In this document: positions 3,401-30,330 of the stretch, piece after piece
How the letters are laid out: every line of letters begins with the position of its first letter
Position numbering within the stretch: position 1 is the first letter of the stretch
Source of the DNA: Anaeramoeba flamelloides
Taxonomy: Eukaryota > Metamonada > Anaeramoebidae
Length of the DNA: 64,000 bases
Assembly: GCA_027625915.1 (NCBI GenBank)
Contig: JANTQA010000047.1
Span: forward strand, 16,244,001-16,308,000
Direction of reading: 5' to 3'
The notes under the pieces: generated by a model
What the model was told of the DNA's origin: nothing
Database searches by the model: none
Seen by the model: only the letters and a program-made list of their open reading frames with translations
Program-made: the position numbers and the translations under genes

Positions 3401-5369
3401 CCCTGAACTCTTTTGAGTAAATTTTCAATTATGAACGGAAATTTATTTTAGGGACTAGTTAACATAAAAAAAATCTTCAAGCAAAATAAATAGTAAATTC
3501 AAAAATGTTATACCACATCTACAAATCGAAAAATGGTGTAAAAATCTGATTACGATAAAAGCAAACTTACTTTCAAAGCTTTTTTCCTAAATGAATTATT
3601 GTTTTTAAAAAGTTGATCCATTTTCCACATTTTTGAAGAGTTCAAAATTTAACATATTTCTTTAATTATTTTAAAAAAATATTATTTTCCTTGAAAGAAG
3701 ATAGAAATCTTAATATCTATACAAGAAATGTACTAAAATACACTTTAAAAATGAAACCAACAAGTTCTAAAATAGTCCAATATAAAAAAACTATTTATTT
3801 TCAAAAAAATTAAATTAATTATTTTTAACTTTAAAAAAAATATAATAATTTGATTCAAAGAAACAGTTCAAATCAATTTTTTCTTTTTATTAAATTAAAA
3901 TATACGAGAAAAAAAAACAAAACCATTAAATTAAAAATTCTCCATAAATACTTTTTTATCACCCATGAAATTCAACTTATAAACTAAAGAAAACTTTTTT
4001 ATTTCGTTGTTTATAATCAATAATTAATGTCCCAATCTTAATTTTTTCTGTGAGTTATTAACAACCAAAGATTAAATGTGACAATAGACTTTACAATTAT
4101 TTCTCAATTTTTAAAAGATTTTCCAACAAATAAAACTAAATCAAATTTAATATTTTAAATAAAAAAAAAAAAAAATATTATCAAATAACTGATTTTAATA
4201 ATAAAATTTCCTTTTTTTTACTCTGAATAATTAGAAAATAATATTGTAGAATCTTTTAAATTTCAAGAAATTTAATAAATATTTGTGAATAAAAGAGATC
4301 TTCAATTTTTTTAGATCTTCAAGGAAACAATATTTGATTTATTTCTATTGTATTTTTAAAATAAGATTAAAGTTTCAAAGGGTATTTTTTTTACAGACTC
4401 TCTGAAATGAGTAAAAGTGAGATTTCTTCAAAATAAAAATTTTTTTTAAATTATTTTTTTTATAATTTGATCCAAAAATACAACAAAAAATAGATCAAGA
4501 TCTTTTTACTGAAAATAAATTGGGAAAAAGAACTCTTTTAAAATTTATAACTCATTTCTCTCAAGTTGATAAACGAAGTTTTCTATTGAGTTTAATTGTA
4601 TAGTTGTGTAAATAATTACTAAATTAACTTTATGAAAAAAAATAAATAAGTGTTATTATTCCCTTAAAGTTATATCTCAATTTATTAGAAATTGTTAATT
4701 TTTTTATGAAGGCAAAAATTTCTCTTTAATTGACGAATTTTTTTTTAAAATTTCTCCAATTCGATCCTGAATGTTTATAATTTCTTTTTTTAATAATAGA
4801 ACTTTTAAGAAACTAACAACATATTTACTAATTGTTTATTACTTTCAAAGGGAATTGAAAAGAAAAACTTTCTAGAAAAAAGAAACATAGCTTATAATTT
4901 TTGTAACACGGGTTTGAAAATTCTTTCTAGATTATTTTAACAACACCCAAATATATTGTTTTGGTATGAAAAAAAGATTGAAAAGAAACAATTAAAAGGG
5001 AAAAATTAAAAAAGAAAAAAAAAATCAAAATAATCCACATACCCCACCTCGGACATAATGATGAAGAAACCAATCCAAAATGTTGTGTCTGTGTTGGAAC
5101 ATTCTTGTATGGGTTAGAGCACCTTCAAGGAGACCAGCTGCATGAGCTTGGACTTTGTCATCAAAATTTTTATTTGTTTGTACAACTAATCTTCCCCATC
5201 CAACTGTGTCAAGTGTATCCTGATACTGTGCTCGTGATGCTCCATTTTCATCATAGACACCTTCTTTATAACTGTATTTTCCTCCAGTGTAATAAACTGT
5301 TGCAGATGTTGCCTTGCAAGAGAAAGGCAACAAAAAGGCAATGAAAATTAAACCTAATTTAAGATACAT
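473..5369 (-). CDS. Phospholipase B-like lysosomal hydrolase (PLBD family), 3 exons
   Basis: Predicted exons are 5369-5043, 3220-2816 and 1384-473, all joined in phase 0 by GT-AG introns, giving 547 residues, close to the usual family length of 550-590. The start ATG at 5369 is followed by a signal peptide (KLGLIFIAFLLPFSCKATSA). Family landmarks follow in order: DTVGWGRLVVQTN and AAGLLEGALT in exon 1; VVSQFEGLTEGY and LLRDHCTGFVRL in exon 2, with the Cys near residue 213 matching the N-terminal nucleophile of this Ntn-hydrolase-type family; and SSYPGFLFSFDDHY, QWLILDYKKF, LWALEQIPGF and GYMPSYNIPYF in exon 3. The family acts in lysosomes or phagosomes as an amidase/phospholipase-type hydrolase, matured by cleavage before the nucleophile. 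Thr follows the Cys here where Ser is usual. Both introns (5042-3221 and 2815-1385) are long and filled with repeats. The frame looks intact throughout. Confidence 0.93.
1385..2815 (-). other. Intron 2 of the PLB-like gene, repeat-filled
   Basis: The donor is AAG/GTTTGT at 2815 and the acceptor AAATAG ends at 1385. The intron carries a dispersed repeat at about 1790-2620 that reappears around the 1.2 kb element in intron 1 (about 3280-3440 and 4680-4925) and at about 7330-7745. Shared landmarks are CCCGTG near one end, TACTCAATAG, and TTTAATAATAG followed by a run ending TTGTTTATT. A short TA run lies at 2632-2646. I see no coding exon here. Confidence 0.5.
3221..5042 (-). other. Intron 1 of the PLB-like gene, with nested repeats
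   Basis: The donor is GG/GTATGT at 5042 and the acceptor CCTAG ends at 3221. The intron contains a dispersed repeat (about 3280-3446 and 4668-4925, ends AAACCCGTGTTTC and its rough complement ACACGGGTTT) that is interrupted by the 1.2 kb TTAA element at 3447-4667. Nothing in it looks coding. Confidence 0.55.
3447..4667 (+). mobile_element. 1.2 kb TTAA-flanked non-autonomous DNA transposon, copy 1
   Basis: The ends read TTTAGGGACTAG on the left and ATTCCCTTAA on the right, so they are inverted repeats of the consensus TTAAGGGACTAG with some decay. The interior matches copy 3 (10526-11747) along its whole length: for example AAAAAAAATCTTCAAG just inside the left end, CTAAAATAG/AACC near the middle, and TTGATAAACGAAGTTT near the right end. 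No transposase reading frame is present. The copy lies inside another repeat in intron 1 of the PLB-like gene. The TTAA target fits piggyBac-like transposition; the GGG start (rather than the CCC usual for piggyBac) leaves the superfamily open. Confidence 0.75.
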
Positions 5370-8690: not shown

Positions 8691-9929
8691 ATAAGGAACG
8701 ATTAAATCTTATTAATTTTTTACAATGGGTAATAGAACACTTATTTGTGTATATATATAACAATAAACCTGATAAATAAACACCTTTTATCAACTTTTCG
8801 GAAATGAGTTATCATTTTTAAAAGAGTTCATTTTTTCTCAATTAAACATTCACTAATAAGATCTAACCGTTTTTATTTGGATTTTTAGAATTGATAATCA
8901 AAAAATCAAGAAAAATTTGTAAAAATTTTTATTTTCGAAATAATCTCACTTTTATTAATTTGTGAGTTTATATGAACAAATAACCTTAAAATTTTAATCT
9001 TGTTTTTGAAAAAAAAAAAATAAACCTAAATAATGAATCCTTGAAGATCAGTAAAAAAATGATTATTTGTATTATTCACAAACATTCATTAAATTTCTTG
9101 AAATTTAAAAGGTTAACGAAATTATATTTTTCAAATATTGAGCATATAAAGAACAAAGTATTATTATTAAAATCAGTTATTTGTGGAATTCTTTTTTTTT
9201 TTTTTTTTTTTTTTATTAGAATTTTTTATTTGAATTTAATTTATTAATTTGAAAAAATTAAAAAAATAGAGAAATAATACTTAAACCTATTGAGATATTT
9301 AATCTTTTGATTAATACCAACCGAACTGAAAAAATTAAAATCGGTTTATTAATTATTAATTATAAATAATTCAATTTAAAAGTATTTCTTTAGACAATAA
9401 ATTGAATTTTATAGGTTTTAAAAAAGTATTTTGGGGAGTTTTCGTAATTTAAGGGTTCTGTTTTTTTTATTATATTTTTTTGTTAAGCAATTGGATAAAA
9501 TCAATTTGAATTGTTCTTTTCACAAATAAATTATGTTTTTTTAAGTTTAAAATAATTATTGTAATTATTTTGAAAATAAGTAGCTTTTATATTTCAGAGT
9601 TATTCAAAAAATTTCTGGTTTTATTTTGAAAGCATACCTTGTACACTCTCTCCTTTCAAGATAATAAGATTTATTTCTTCTTCAAAGAAAATAATTTATT
9701 TTATAAATAATTCAGAAATATGTTGAATTTGGAACAATTTTGGAAAAATAGAAAAATCGTCAGACTTTTAAAAACAATAATTCATTTCTGAAAATAAGCA
9801 TGAAAAGAAAGTTTGGTCTTTTGGTAATCAGATTTTTACTTTGTTTTTCAATTTCAAGATACGGTAAAAATTTTTTTAATTTGTTAGTAAATTTACTTGA
9901 AGATTTTTTTTAGTTTACTAAAACCTTTA
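8691..9929 (-). mobile_element. 1.2 kb TTAA-type transposon, copy 2 (reverse)
   Basis: This stretch aligns with the reverse complement of 10526-11747. Landmarks in order are TAAGGAACGATTAAATCTTA at its start (decayed end), TTATCAACTTTT, ATCATTTTTAAAAGAG, TTAAATTTCTTGAAATTT, TTAAAATCAGTTAT, and ACTTGAAGATTTTTTTTAG with TTTACTAAAACC at its end. Both TTAA ends have decayed, so it looks older than copy 3. It stops about 110 bp upstream of the DCN1-like start codon and so may form part of that gene's 5' region. It encodes no protein. Confidence 0.65.
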
Positions 9930-10041: not shown

Positions 10042-12715
10042 ATGGTAATTTTTCTTCAAATATTTTCTTCAGACTTCTTATTTTGGTTTCCTCTTTTGTC
10101 TTTTTTGCAAACAAACACAAAACTTATTTTGTCTTTCCTTGAAACAGAGCAATTTGTCAAATGAAGAAAGAAACAAAGTAAATAGATTTACCTCGATCAC
10201 AAATGCAAGGTAAGAACTTTTTGTCTTTTTTTTACAACCTTTTTTTACTTATTTAGTCAAAATGTTTTGTTTGATTCATCACATTGACTATTTTCTTGAT
10301 ACTTTGAAAAAACAAACAGTGAAAAGAGGGCTATTAATATGTTAAAAACATATTCTTGGAATGTTGATCGAGCAATTGACGAATTTTTTAATCAAACAGA
10401 AAAAAAAAGTACATCTTTCAATGAATACCAGCAACAAAGAAAAAAGAATTTAGAAAAACAAAAGCAATTAAAAAACCAAAAACCAAAAAAAACATGGGTT
10501 GATCGAAACAAAATTGAAGTGCTCTTTAAGAAACTAGTAAACTAAAAAAAATCTTCAAGTAAATTTACTCACAAATTAAAAAAAAATTTTACCGTATCTT
10601 GAAATTGAAAAATAAAGTAAAAATCTGATAACTACAAAGATCGATTACTTTTAATACTATTTTCAGAAATGAATTATTTTTTTAAAAAAGTCTGATACCT
10701 TTTTTCTCATTTTTGAAAAGTTCAAAATCCAACATATTTCAGAATTATTTAAAAAAAATTATTTTCTTTGAAAGAAGATTGAAATCTTATTGCCTGTAAA
10801 GGAAGTGTACAAAAATACACTTTAAAAATGAAACCACTAAGTTCTAAAATAACCAAGTTTAAAAAATCTACTTAATCTCAAAAAAAATACATTATTTATT
10901 TTAAACTTGTAAAAAATATAATTTTTTGATTCAAAGAACAGACCAAATCTATTTTTTCTAGGGATTAAATGAAAAAATCTCAGAAAAAGAACCAAAGAAT
11001 CGAATTAAAAATTCTCCCGAAATACTTTTTTAAAACCTATAAAATTCAACTTATTATCTAAAGAAATACTTTTTAATTTGATTATTTATAATTAATAATT
11101 TTAAACCAAATCTTAATTATTTCAGTAAGTCATTAACAACCCAATGATTAAATGTATCAAATAGGTTTTACATTTATTTCTCAATTTTTTCAAGATTTTG
11201 CAACAAATAAAACAATTCAAATGCATATATCTAATAATAAAAAAAATAATAGATATTATCTAATAACTGATTTTAATACAAACAGTTCCTTGTTTATACT
11301 CTTGGAATTTGAAAAAGTATATTGGCAAGTCTTTTAAATTTCAAGAAATTGAATAAATATTTGTGAATAAAATAAATGTTCAAATTTTTTAGATCTTCAA
11401 GGATACAATATTTGATTTATTTTTCATGTATTTTTAAAATAATATTAAAGTCACAACGTTACTTGCTCATAACGACTCTCAGAAATTACTAAAAGTGATA
11501 TTTCTTCCAAAATTAAATTTTTTTGCAAATTTTTAGTTTTTCTAATTTGATCCAAAAACCCAACAAAAAAGGATCTAGATCTTTTGACTGAAAATTTAAT
11601 TGGAAAAATGAAATCTTTTAAAAATGATTATTCCTTTCTCTAAAGTTGATAAACGAAGTTTCTTATTGGGTTTAATTGTATCCTTATGTAAATAATTACT
11701 CTATTACCTTTGGGAAAAAAAATAAATAAGAGTTACTAGTCCCTTAACAAGTACAAGGGTAATTTTTTTTTTTTAAACTATTTCCTAATTTTCTTTCATT
11801 CTTTTTTTTTTCAATTTCTTTTATCGGGAACATTTGACGGATTTTCTCTGCAACACTAACAAATTTTTTGAAACATTTGTTTCTCTTGAAAAACAAACAT
11901 TTGTTTTGAACATTTTTCCTCTTGAAAAACAATCAATAACAAATTTTTTTTCTTCTTTTTATGCACTTAAAGACAAAGAAACTGGTTTAATAGAATACGA
12001 TGGAGTAGAAAGATTCCTCACAGATTGTGGCGTTGATTTAATGGCTGTTGAGTCCTTAATTCTCAGATGGCACATGAATGCACAAATCATGGGTGCTTAT
12101 TCAAAAAAAGAATTTTGTGACGGGCTATTCAAAATCAAATGTGAGAACTTGGAAGATCTTAAGGAGAGAATTCCTTTCTTAAAAAATGAACTTGAAGACA
12201 AAGCAACCTTTGACGATTTTAATTCTTTTGTTTTTAAATTTGCAAAAGAAGATCCCAACCATCGAGTCCATATGTAGTTTTCAATATTTTTCTTATTTTT
12301 TATACTTTTTTTCCATTTCTCTTTCTGTAATTTCCCTTTATTTTATCTTTTTCTTTTTCTTTTTCTTTTTCTTTCCTTTCTTTTTAACCGTTCTTCTGAT
12401 CTGTTTCTTAAATTTTTTTTTTTTGAATTGATTTTCTTTACCAAAAAAACCAAAATACTTTGACCCCAAATAGTCGATAACACAATTGCAGTTGCATTGT
12501 GGCCACTCTTATATAAGGACAAATTTAAACTTTTAGACAAATGGTTAGAATTTTGGAAATTAGAAGAGAATAAAAAAAAAACTATTAGCGAAGATTTATG
12601 GGATACTTTATCTGAATTCTCAAGAACTATTAAAAGTGTTGAGGATTATGATCCAATGGAAGCTTGGCCAGCATTATTAGACGAATTTATAGAATGGCTC
12701 GAAGAGCAAAACTAA
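10042..12715 (+). CDS. DCN1-like protein (cullin neddylation factor), exon 3 split by a transposon
   Basis: Predicted coding segments are 10042-10044 (ATG alone), 10148-10209, 10320-10529 plus 11748-11758 (one exon interrupted by the element at 10526-11747), 11973-12273 and about 12474-12715. The N-terminus SNLSNEERNKVNRFTSIT continues through SEKRAINMLKTYSWNVDRAI, a UBA-like domain. A PONY domain follows: DCGVDLMAVESLILRWHMN, YSKKEFCDGL, ALWPLLYKDKF and MEAWPALLDEFIEWL. DCN1 proteins bind cullins and the E2 Ubc12 and act as scaffold co-E3 for NEDD8 transfer. Oddities: without the element the exon reads CTC TTT AAC AAG TAC AAG G, a normal DCN1 sequence (LFNKYK); and the exon 4/exon 5 junction does not resolve in frame with GT-AG signals (donor in phase 2, both candidate acceptors at 12473 and 12491 need phase 1). 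It could be a working gene with unusual processing or a young pseudogene. Confidence 0.85.
10045..10147 (+). other. Intron directly after the DCN1 start codon
   Basis: ATG at 10042-10044 is followed at once by GTAATTTTTC, and GAAACAG ends at 10147. Joining ATG to AGC AAT TTG restores an N-terminus of normal DCN1 type. No ATG in frame exists in the exon beginning at 10148. The start codon and the next codon are therefore predicted to lie in different exons. Confidence 0.65.
10526..11747 (+). mobile_element. 1.2 kb TTAA-flanked transposon, copy 3, inside the DCN1 coding exon
   Basis: The left end is TTAAGAAACTAGTAAAC and the right end AGTTACTAGTCCCTTAA. TTAA occurs once at the inferred empty site (CTCTTTAACAAGTAC) and at both ends here, so it is a target duplication checked by the coding frame. 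The interior matches copies 1 and 2, and no transposase frame is seen. GT at 10537 (CTA/GTAAAC) and AG at 11739 (TTACTAG/TCC) could act as splice sites. Removing 10537-11739 leaves the reading frame open and adds five codons to DCN1. Confidence 0.85.
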
Positions 12716-13711: not shown

Positions 13712-13912
13712 TACAGCCAGTTCCACTTTTAAGGCACAAACGTTCTACGAAATTTAGGGCACAATAAAAATCTCAAATTAAGTCACAAAAATCAGATTCT
13801 AGTAAAATAAATTGTAAAAAAAAAAAATTTCAAATTTTATCCCTTAATTTGAAATTTTTTTGTGCATTAAATTTCATTGAACGTTTGTGCCTTAAAAGTC
13901 GAACATACTGTA
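13712..13912. mobile_element. Tc1/mariner-type MITE, copy 1
   Basis: TACAGCCAGTTCCACTTTT on the left matches the complement of AAAAGTCGAACATACTGTA on the right. The terminal TA pair and CAG start are typical of Tc1/mariner ends. Arms of about 85 bp share AAGGCACAAACGTT and CTCAAATTAAG with their complements, so the whole 200 bp can fold into a hairpin. Copies at 29581-29782 and 31114-31312 are better preserved. Confidence 0.8.
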
Positions 13913-14007: not shown

Positions 14008-17000
14008 TACAACTAATCCAAAGATACCCTGAAATTTTATCAATACCAAAATTTGAAGTTGATATAAATTTTCAAAAAGTTCAATATGAGAATAATATAG
14101 TATATATTAAAAAAAAAATTCCTAAATGAGTCTATATTCAAGAATTTTCTCTGATTTTCAATAAATAAATTTTCAGAACCAAAAATGACTCTAAACATCG
14201 TAAATTCATGAGGAAACTACATTAAATTTACTCTAAAAAAAGTATTTATTTTTTTTTTTTTTTTATTATTTAAGGGAGGAGGTATTGACCCCTCTTATTT
14301 GTCTGAATTCCTAAATTTTTATTTAGGAATTTAATTAAAGACTCTAAAATAAGTTTATTACCCACTAAGGCTAATAAAGAGTTTGAATCCTTTTTTATAA
14401 TAATATTAGAAATATTATTATTATTTAATATTTTAGATATATTAATTTTTTTTAATTCAGATATCCAGATTTTGCAATTATTTTCATAGGCTGAGCAGTT
14501 CCATAGAAAATGGTCTAAATCTTCAATAATATCTAAATTGTTTATTTTTTTACATAATTCACATAGTTTTGATTTGTTTTTATTCATAACATAAGAGTAC
14601 CTGTTAAGGTAATTTGTAAAATTTATAAGTTTTAAAATTGAAGTTGAGCCCTTCCATTTTAAATATCTTTGCTGCTTATTTATAGTATTATTGATTTGTA
14701 CTATTTTTAGATATTCTTGAACTTTCCAACTTGGACTATTTTCTAAGTTTTTAATTCTAAAATTTTCTAGTTCATTTTCCAATTGTTTTAAATTTTTGGA
14801 GTACCAATTTATATTTTTGATTCTTTTTTTTTCTAAAAGGGAGATAATTAATTAATTCATCATAATGGAGGATTTTTAATTTTTTGAATTAACTTAAATC
14901 TTCTTTTTATATATCGTTATCCTTACGGGATCAATTTTTGCTTCAGTTTTATAAATAAGCCTTGGTGAGTGTGGGTTGATTAATAAAAATTTTGTAATTT
15001 TTTTATTAATCCAAGTATCAATATCTTTAAAATCTGTTTTTTGTTAAATGAAATATTTCTAAACCATATAATAATTGGCTATGTAATACAGCTTTAAAAA
15101 ATTGAATTTTTTAATCCATTAGAAAAATTTTTTTGTTGTAAGATATTGATTAACTTTTTAAAATTGGCCTTAACTTTATCAAGGTTGAATTTTAAATGAG
15201 TTTTTTTATCTAGCCAAATACCAAGATATAAAATTTCTTTTGGAATTAAGGTTTTTTTAGTTTTATCATCATTAGGATTCATTCCAAAATCTTTTATTAT
15301 TTTAAAGATTTTTTGTAATTGAAAATTGATTTCTATTAATGATCCTTTCATCAGTAAAATCAGATCATCTGTAAACATTTGAATATATAACGCTAGTGAT
15401 TTAATTTTTTCTAAGAGAAAATGGGTAATAAATCCAAATAATAAAGGAGATAATGGATCTCCTTGGTAAACACCAATTCCTTCTTTTGAGTAATAAGCAA
15501 GTAGATATTCTACAATAATTTCATTTTTTATAAATTTTTTAATTGAATAATAAATAAGTGAATGGTGAATAGAGTCAAAAACATTTTTGTATATCTATTG
15601 TAACAATATAAATATTTTCTTTTTTAAATTTATTTTTTATTTTTTGATGTTCATTCAATAAGTTTAAAACTGCAATTCTAGTATCTAATTTTTTTTTTCA
15701 ATCCAAATTGGTTTTTTGAAACTAAGTCCCAAGAATCTTGAATTCCGGCATATAAAAATTTAAGAAAAAATCTTGGGAGAGTTTGATTAATTGAAATTGG
15801 TCTATAATTAAGTGGAATACCTTCATCGCTAGATTTATGAATGAATAATAAATTTCTTTTTTTAATAAATTTAATATTTTTTTGAGAAATATCATTAATC
15901 CAATTAAAAAATATTTTTTGGATTGTTTTTTATAAAGTTTTCATAATTTATATAAAATTCACTACTTTGATTTTTTTATTGTTTTTATATTGTTTAATTT
16001 TATCAAATTTATTGACAGATTTATTTTTTTGATATTTGATAATTTCTTTGATTTTAGTAATTGAGAATATTTCTTCTATTTTAATATTTAATAAATTATT
16101 TTTTATCTAATGTGAAATTTTTAATAAAATTTAGAATATATTTTTTTTGGTTTTTTTACTAATAGATTTGACAAACCCGAAATATGAAGTTTCCATATTT
16201 TCATTATTAAGAATCATTTTACTCGAAGTTTCTCTTAATCTATTTAACTTTTTCCAAAAGTTTTGATTTTCTTTAAATTCAATATTAATCTGGTTTATTA
16301 ATTTAAAATATTGTTTACTATTCCTATCTTTAATTTCTTTAATTAATTCATTATTTTCAAATAATTTATTAATTAAATTATATAATTTTAAATCTTTTTT
16401 TGGTATATTTAATATAATTCTCTCTTTTACTTTAAATTGTTTTTTAAAGATTTTAAAATTCTTTCCATTTAATTGATAATTATTATTTTTATAAAAATTT
16501 ATAAAGTCAACATGAAACTTTGCAATATCTTTAATTTTGTAGACATTTTTAATTTCCCAGTTTTTATTAATATTAAATTTATTTAATATTACATTATGAT
16601 CACTAATTTTATTTTTTATGGTTTTTGATTTGATAAATTTGTGGTTATTAAAGTTAGTTATAAAATAATCAATGTTATTTTTTTTTCTACTTGGCTTAGT
16701 ATTTAAAATAATTTTAAAGTTGAATTTTGAAAAATAATTTATTTGATTTTCATTCAAATTAAAATCTCCCCCGATAATTGTATTACGGTTTTGATATTTT
16801 TGTAATAAACCAAGGATTTTTTCATTTATTTCTTTATTCCTGTCATGTCTCTTGTATTGAAAATATTTTTTCAGAAATGAGTTGATATGAAAAATAAACT
16901 TCTAATGTGATCGAAAAATAAATACTTTTTTCTTGATATTATGGGAATTCAATTCACTGATTTTATCATTATTAACTTATATAAGTTTTGTTATTCTTAT

Positions 17001-28554: not shown

Positions 28555-30330
28555 TTTATTATTGATGAGGAAGTGTAAATTGCAATCTAAGCGACATCTT
28601 ACTTAAATTACCTCGCAGGAATTTAGGCGTAAAATCATTGATTTCATAATTATCAATTAATGAAAATAATTTTAAGCAGTCTTTACTTAAAATTATTTCA
28701 TTAAAATTTAATTCTCTTAATTTATTTAAAAAAATCAATCTATCTTTTATATAGGAATGACATACCCATAAAAAGTGATCAATATTTTCTATTAACTTAC
28801 TATGTTTTATATATTAAACATAAAGTTCAAAATTTATTTAAGTTTTTATTTGTTACATAGTAATATATATTTAAACGGTTACTAGTAAATGTTCTGAATT
28901 TTAGAATTCTTGAGCTTGATGGATAACTTAAGTATCTTTGATTAATAAATATTTTCTTTTTGATTTTTAATTATTATAAAATATTCTTGTACTTTCCAAC
29001 TGGTGGATTTCAACAACTCATAATTATAATAATTATAAATTTCGTTTTTAAAAAGCTATAAATTCTTTGAATTCCAATTAATTTTAATGTTATACTTTGA
29101 TTAAATATCATTAGTTTATTCAGATAGGTAAGAGATAATTTTTTTAAGTTATTTTTGAATTTAAATTTTTTCAATTTAATTAAATCTTTTGAATTCAATT
29201 GATTTTATTGTTTATTCAGTGATTAAATTTTATTAATTTTTCCAAATTAAGCTGGGGGATGAATTTTCTAATTTCTTTTGGAATTTTAATTGAAATTTAT
29301 TTCCTGAGATAACCAAATTTTTCAATTAAATTCTATTTTATAAATAAGAATTCGTTTATTTCGGTTTATTTTATATATTTCGGTAGTACCTGTGTTAAAG
29401 CAGGAGTTTGGATAATTCAGGGTTTCAATTTTATAGTTATCTATTTCTAAACCATATGTTAATTGATTTTACATACAAGATTTTAATACTCTAGTTTTTA
29501 AATTATTTGTTGAGGGAATTGTTATTAAATAATTGTTTGCAGATATTAAATGTTTCTTTAGCTTTTTTTAGGTTAGATACTACAGTCAGTTTCACTTTTA
29601 AGGCACAAACTATCAACGAAATTTAAGACTCCAAAAAAATCTCAAATTAAGGCACAAAATTTGGAATTTTTTTTTTTACAATTTATTTTTACTAGATTGT
29701 GTATTTTGTGCTTTAATTTGAGATTTTTTTTGAGTCTTAAATTTCGTTGAAAGTTTGAGCCTAAAAAGTGAAACTGACTGTATATGAGAAATTTTTTCGG
29801 AATAAATTCTCAAATATTTAATCTTCTTAAAAACTTTTGATATTTCTGTTTTCTCTTTGTTAGGTTTAAATTTAAATTGAATTATTATTTGATATATTCA
29901 ATTTAATTTCTGATTTAATTGATTTGTATTTCCTTTTCTAATTTAAATTAAATCATCTGAAAACATTTGATTATGATTTTTTAATGATATTAAATTTAAA
30001 AAAGAAAATTTGAAATAAGAGAAAATAAAGTAGTTGATTAAGGATCCCCTTGGAATATACCAAGTCCTTCTCCTTAATAATATATTAATAAAAAAATTTT
30101 AGATAATTTGATTTAAAATAAACTTTTATATTTTTTTTTCTGATTTTTTTAAAATTAATTGAATCAAAAAATTTTGCTATTTTAATCATTATGATATAAA
30201 TTATATCATTTTCATTTTCATTTTTTGGATTTTATTTGATGATATATATTTAAAAAAATTAAGACCGAAATTCGATTATTATATTTTTTTTAAAACTCAA
30301 ATTGTGACGTAAAATTAAAATTTATTAAGG
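28555..30330 (-). mobile_element. LINE B, second non-LTR retrotransposon family, decayed
   Basis: On the minus strand the remnants read NRISVL near 30290, GEGLGIFQGDP near 30060, QMFSDDLI near 29955 and a C-terminal ENIDHFLWVC near 28770. The 3' end is ATTGATGAGGAAGTGTAA at 28560. The same 3' end recurs at 46690, 47135, 48444-48536 and 63315-63410. Many stops break the frame. A mariner-type MITE (29581-29782) is inserted within it. The family is related to LINE A by its RT motifs but has a different 3' tail. Confidence 0.75.
29581..29782. mobile_element. Tc1/mariner-type MITE, copy 2, inside LINE B
   Basis: TACAGTCAGTTTCACTTTT on the left and the complement of AAAAGTGAAACTGACTGTA on the right form near-perfect terminal inverted repeats, with TA at both ends. 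Confidence 0.88.

Follow-up and report, generated by a model that had tools for sequence, protein, structure and literature searches.

The window, by which we mean the whole 64,000-nucleotide stretch that was analysed (C48:16244001-16308000 in a 254-Mb assembly of 76 contigs from an AT-rich, intron-bearing eukaryote), contains a five-exon DCN1-like gene on its forward strand, the third exon of which is interrupted by a transposon of 1.2 kb. The gene and its insertion are made up of the following features, given in window positions:

10042..10044, + strand: DCN1 exon 1, the ATG followed by GTAATT, an arrangement shared with the paralogues L010-L012
10148..10209, + strand: DCN1 exon 2, where the UBA-like domain begins
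10320..10529, + strand: DCN1 exon 3, portion left of the element (UBA_4 match at window:10300-10542)
10526..11747, + strand: non-autonomous DNA transposon with TTAA target, 1,222 bp when the TTAA at either end is counted
10526..10529, no strand: left copy of the TTAA target site, with the left inverted end directly after it
10530-10540: left inverted end of the element, GAAACTAGTAA (consensus GGGACTAGTAA)
10537..11739, + strand: hypothetical intron, GT...AG inside the ends of the element, 1,203 nt, which would add 15 nt in frame
11744..11747, no strand: right copy of the TTAA target site, with the right inverted end TTACTAGTCCC directly before it
11748..11758, + strand: DCN1 exon 3, portion right of the element, CAAGTACAAGG, then the donor GTAATT
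11973..12269, + strand: DCN1 exon 4
12270..12473, + strand: intron between exons 4 and 5, whose donor is broken (it starts ATATGTAG)
12474..12715, + strand: DCN1 exon 5, the last, with most of the Cullin_binding domain and TAA at its end

When the exons are joined at one TTAA, the result is an open 274-aa protein without a stop that matches the proteins of the paralogues over their length. The region of exon 5 (window:12464-12712) corresponds to positions 38-118 of the 118 in profile PF03556. For the closest paralogue, L010, the encoded protein matched both UBA_4 (PF14555, E 1.7e-11) and Cullin_binding, also called PONY (PF03556, E 8.6e-26), and it matched human DCN1-like protein 1 (PDB) with an E-value of 1.1e-43. 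Judged from the presence of both the UBA-like and the Cullin_binding domain, the host gene is a member of the DCN1 (cullin neddylation) family.

An earlier note on this DNA had placed a TTAA transposon within a coding exon of DCN1 at 10519-11758. The element is indeed located there, with exact borders slightly inside that interval at 10526-11747; the exon letters are CTCTTTAAGAAACTAGTAAACT on its left and AGAGTTACTAGTCCCTTAACAAGTACAAGG|GTAATT on its right. From these flanks an empty site with a 4-bp TTAA duplication had been predicted, and a search for an uninterrupted paralogue had been suggested. Our search with one exon returned four close copies, namely the window gene, L010 (93%), L011 (89%) and L012 (88%), the remainder being at most 51% identical. 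L010, on contig C33, reads GTGCTCTTTAACAAGTACAAGG|GTAATT without any element, letter for letter as predicted, and the insertion site is also uninterrupted in L011 and L012. Each of these three paralogues has a frame of 274 aa, the ATG followed by GTAA, and GT-AG borders at its three remaining introns.

The paralogues fall into pairs by synonymous divergence: dS was 0.25 between the window gene and L010, 0.34 between L011 and L012, and 0.42-0.68 for the cross pairs. The window also contains, 49 kb downstream, a protein kinase gene (named by eye) whose closest match elsewhere, at 89%, is on C33; that match is 35 kb away from L010, on the same strand. Upstream of the window DCN1, at a distance of about 11-12 kb, lies a phospholipase B-like gene (PF04916, E 4.1e-110), and the two genes stand head to head at three places, namely in the window and at L011 and L012; no close copy of the phospholipase B-like gene was found near L010. 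We infer from these few genes that the window DCN1 and L010 are collinear counterparts, probably derived from a segmental or chromosome-scale duplication. In contig coordinates, the collinear DCN1 and kinase genes span C48 16255972-16305511 and C33:12042613-12077872, and further places that look like large duplications were seen at C48:13.35 Mb and C33:9.45 Mb.

The inserted element belongs to a family with a consensus of 1,217 bp, both ends of which carry the terminal inverted repeat TTAAGGGACTAGTAA, 15 bp long when the TTAA is counted. Left ends occur at least 215 times in the genome within 2 mismatches, compared to 0 for a reversed-pattern control, and there are at least 40 near-full-length matches with 85-100% identity (window copy included; 40 of 6,095 candidates were scored). 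From 53 loci we delimited 54 copies, leaving out L027 and four short loci as duplicates; 48 of them measure 1,213-1,239 bp, and the other six 1.4-2.5 kb. Since TTAA stands exactly at both ends of 42 of the 54 copies while the neighbouring bases outside are mixed, TTAA is the target. The window element differs from the consensus (48 copies) at 35 of 1,216 compared columns and has no notable coding frame, the longest stop-to-stop frame inside it being 61 codons.

Two older copies of the same family are present in the window, at 3447-4667 (+, 81% identity to the consensus) and at 8692-9920 (-, 77%), the latter ending upstream of DCN1, some 120 bp from its ATG. At L057 (C48:11409700-11415140) two family copies of very unequal age lie end to end with an overlap of about 4 bp. 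Ends of the type TTAAGGGACTAGTAAT or -AAG mark a sister subfamily, which occurs at 20 places in the genome; the one place that was read holds a non-autonomous copy of 1.2 kb that is 83% identical and has no frame of more than 100 codons.

The likeliest source of mobility would be a piggyBac-type transposase encoded elsewhere in the genome. The piggyBac transposase domain PF13843 has 68 matches in this genome and none in any of 14 control genomes, and the family resembles non-autonomous, MITE-like elements of the piggyBac type in its duplicated TTAA, its short inverted ends, its lack of a transposase frame and its many copies. It differs from them in that no autonomous partner was found: the ends of the element were absent from the 1.5-kb flanks at the four piggyBac loci that were read (of 68). 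Four family copies that looked long measure 1.6-2.5 kb. Moreover, piggyBac ends begin with CCC, unlike the GGG at the ends of our consensus. Kolobok elements also target TTAA, and their ends start with G-rich bases; in these two respects the family is like Kolobok and the T2-MITEs of Xenopus.

The window DCN1 carries a second lesion, in the splice donor that follows exon 4; neither this lesion nor the collinear intact copy appears in the earlier note. Position 12270 is an A in the window, where all three paralogues have a G, so that the donor reads ATATGTAG compared to GTATGTAG in L010 and GTAAGTTG in L011 and L012 (GTAAGT among the paralogues). Retention of this intron is predicted to leave 196 of the 274 residues, and use of the nearest downstream GT (12274) 197 of 274; either way exon 5 is lost, and with it positions 38-118 of the 118 in Cullin_binding. 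This lesion would persist even if the element were removed. As a change of a single base, it may also be an error of the assembly. Both lesions, element and donor, are private to the window copy. The earlier note had argued that the insertion should kill the gene unless it is removed from DNA or RNA. The unspliced frame does reach a stop a few codons into the element, but the need for removal finds no support and mostly dissolves, since the window DCN1 is one of four close copies, of which the other three are intact, and has the second lesion at 12270.

We also compared private changes, defined as coding differences at which the other three DCN1 copies agree. In the window gene, 16 of these are synonymous and 4 nonsynonymous (P = 2e-9 if there were no constraint), compared to 6 and 2 in L010; the larger total of the window gene (20 vs 8) has a p-value of 0.036. 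Five of the 20 window-private changes crowd into DCN1 codons 2-7 (exon 2, from 10148), possibly as a result of gene conversion or a mutation cluster. With just 4 of 20 private changes nonsynonymous, the window DCN1 was constrained, and thus functional, for most of its branch, and a sustained loss of constraint is ruled out.

For the element itself, the distance to the consensus (2.9%) was dropped as a measure of age, as 28 of the 35 substitutions are common to other copies. The remaining 7 are absent from the 47 other aligned copies, which puts the private age of the insertion at about 0.6% or less, compared to about 11% private synonymous change in the gene. A 40-mer that is diagnostic for the window element has no further occurrence in the genome within 2 mismatches, and no parent copy was identified. 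Under neutrality about 3.9 nonsynonymous changes would be expected since the insertion and 4 were seen in total, so these data do not separate a dead window gene from one still under selection. Given the constraint along most of its branch, the window DCN1 probably died recently.

We consider it probable that the locus is an ordinary case of a transposon landing in one gene of a duplicated DCN1 family, the carrier most likely being a pseudogene of recent origin. That a non-autonomous, cut-and-paste transposon with TTAA target inserted into exon 3 of one of the four DCN1 copies is recorded in the sequence itself. Under this explanation, the insertion would have been tolerated because the carrier had redundant paralogues, and the carrier, now without a working frame and with the donor of its fourth intron lost as well, would have become a pseudogene. 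One caveat is that decay is invisible, as outside the two lesions the reading frame contains neither a stop nor a frameshift. The same dead gene could also have arisen in the reverse order, with the donor mutation preceding the insertion; the privacy of both lesions to the window copy is compatible with this order, which we regard as possible but the less probable one. That the two flanks of the element come from different genes or from a chimaeric assembly is hardly credible and is ruled out by L010, in which both flanks are contiguous with identical letters across the join; exon and intron sequence runs on beyond the flanks in both copies, and the test of single-gene origin set by the earlier note agrees with the open joined frame of 274 aa. 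Nor do we give much weight to programmed excision, by which a piggyBac-type transposase would remove the element from the DNA of the somatic or expressed genome, as in ciliates, with the assembly showing the germline form. TTAA target sites do permit precise excision, and piggyBac-type domains are present in open frames of 417-544 aa. However, a long joined frame was seen at just 4 of 54 copies, other genes in the window are uninterrupted (one over 937 codons), and the donor lesion would remain after excision. In addition, the introns of 103-214 nt and the use of TAA as a stop are not ciliate-like. All in all, this makes programmed excision very improbable.

An alternative at the level of RNA is that the element acts as an intron in place, from the GT at 10537 to the AG ending at 11739, such that the gene may still be expressed. 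The ends of the element contain A|GTAAAC and TTACTAG|, and the predicted splice (10537-11739) would yield an in-frame, stop-free product of 840 nt with five added residues (VLFKKLSLNKYK). Across the family, 48 of 48 copies retain the GTAA of the left end and 42 of 48 the AG of the right one, and the coding sequence is free of stops and frameshifts outside the two lesions. On the other hand, the ACTAGT motif is its own reverse complement and belongs to the inverted ends, so that it is not necessarily a splice signal; one third of insertions would be in frame by chance; and the gene has lost the donor that follows exon 4. Action as an intron is on balance very unlikely. Slightly less probable still is the full version, in which a TTAA transposon with splice-like GT/AG in either orientation would be spliced from a coding exon of a live gene with a five-residue insertion; in that case the change at 12270 would stem either from an error in the assembly or from a second hit of very recent date.

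To our knowledge, no introner-like element of this kind has been described in this lineage and transposon type. If the family as a whole consisted of introners, it might be enriched in genes, but such enrichment was absent, the copies being if anything under-represented in long open frames, in contrast to elements that splicing routinely removes: joined frames of at least 100 codons were found at 4 of 54 copies (window included) and at 215 of 1,168 TTAA sites in the window, a weak test with a p-value of 0.044 and one 64-kb window as its control. In flanks, the comparison rate was 16.8% of 937 TTAA sites in joined frames of at least 100 codons. Among the four copies in such frames, those in the window and at L006 look like real genes, while those at L021 and L061 do not. 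At L006 (C24:8698190) the joined frame is 489 codons long and WD40/BTB-like (named by eye), and the copy sits five codons ahead of its stop. The frame test thus goes against the whole family being introners, and on this measure the family does not behave like them.

As described by Gozashti et al. (2022, PMC9860276), introners share with the window element the ends of DNA transposons and a GT...AG inside them, and some, such as those of Aureococcus, bring both splice sites with them and add codons, which favours the intron reading. According to the same paper, introner families have median lengths of 30-654 nt, compared to 1.2 kb here; the window family differs further in being under-represented, rather than enriched, in coding frames, and its splicing is a prediction.

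Returning to the ordinary transposon hit, the locus offers a clean and datable example of an insertion into a gene that has duplicates, and matching segments keep the empty site. If this likely explanation holds, nothing beyond gene loss after duplication would be involved; the locus would nevertheless allow a concrete test, at the RNA level, of the idea that TTAA transposons are able to function as introns.

Other mobile elements also lie in the window. A 167-bp element at 13729-13895 with the ends TTAAGGCACAAACGTTC and GAACGTTTGTGCCTTAA represents a second TTAA-type family, and similar ends were seen near 29598 and 31279 as well as at the piggyBac loci L068 and L070. Finally, 14270-16901 (-) is occupied by a fragmented LINE-like retroelement with a match to RVT_1 (E 2.4e-14) and an endonuclease match that falls under its cut-off.
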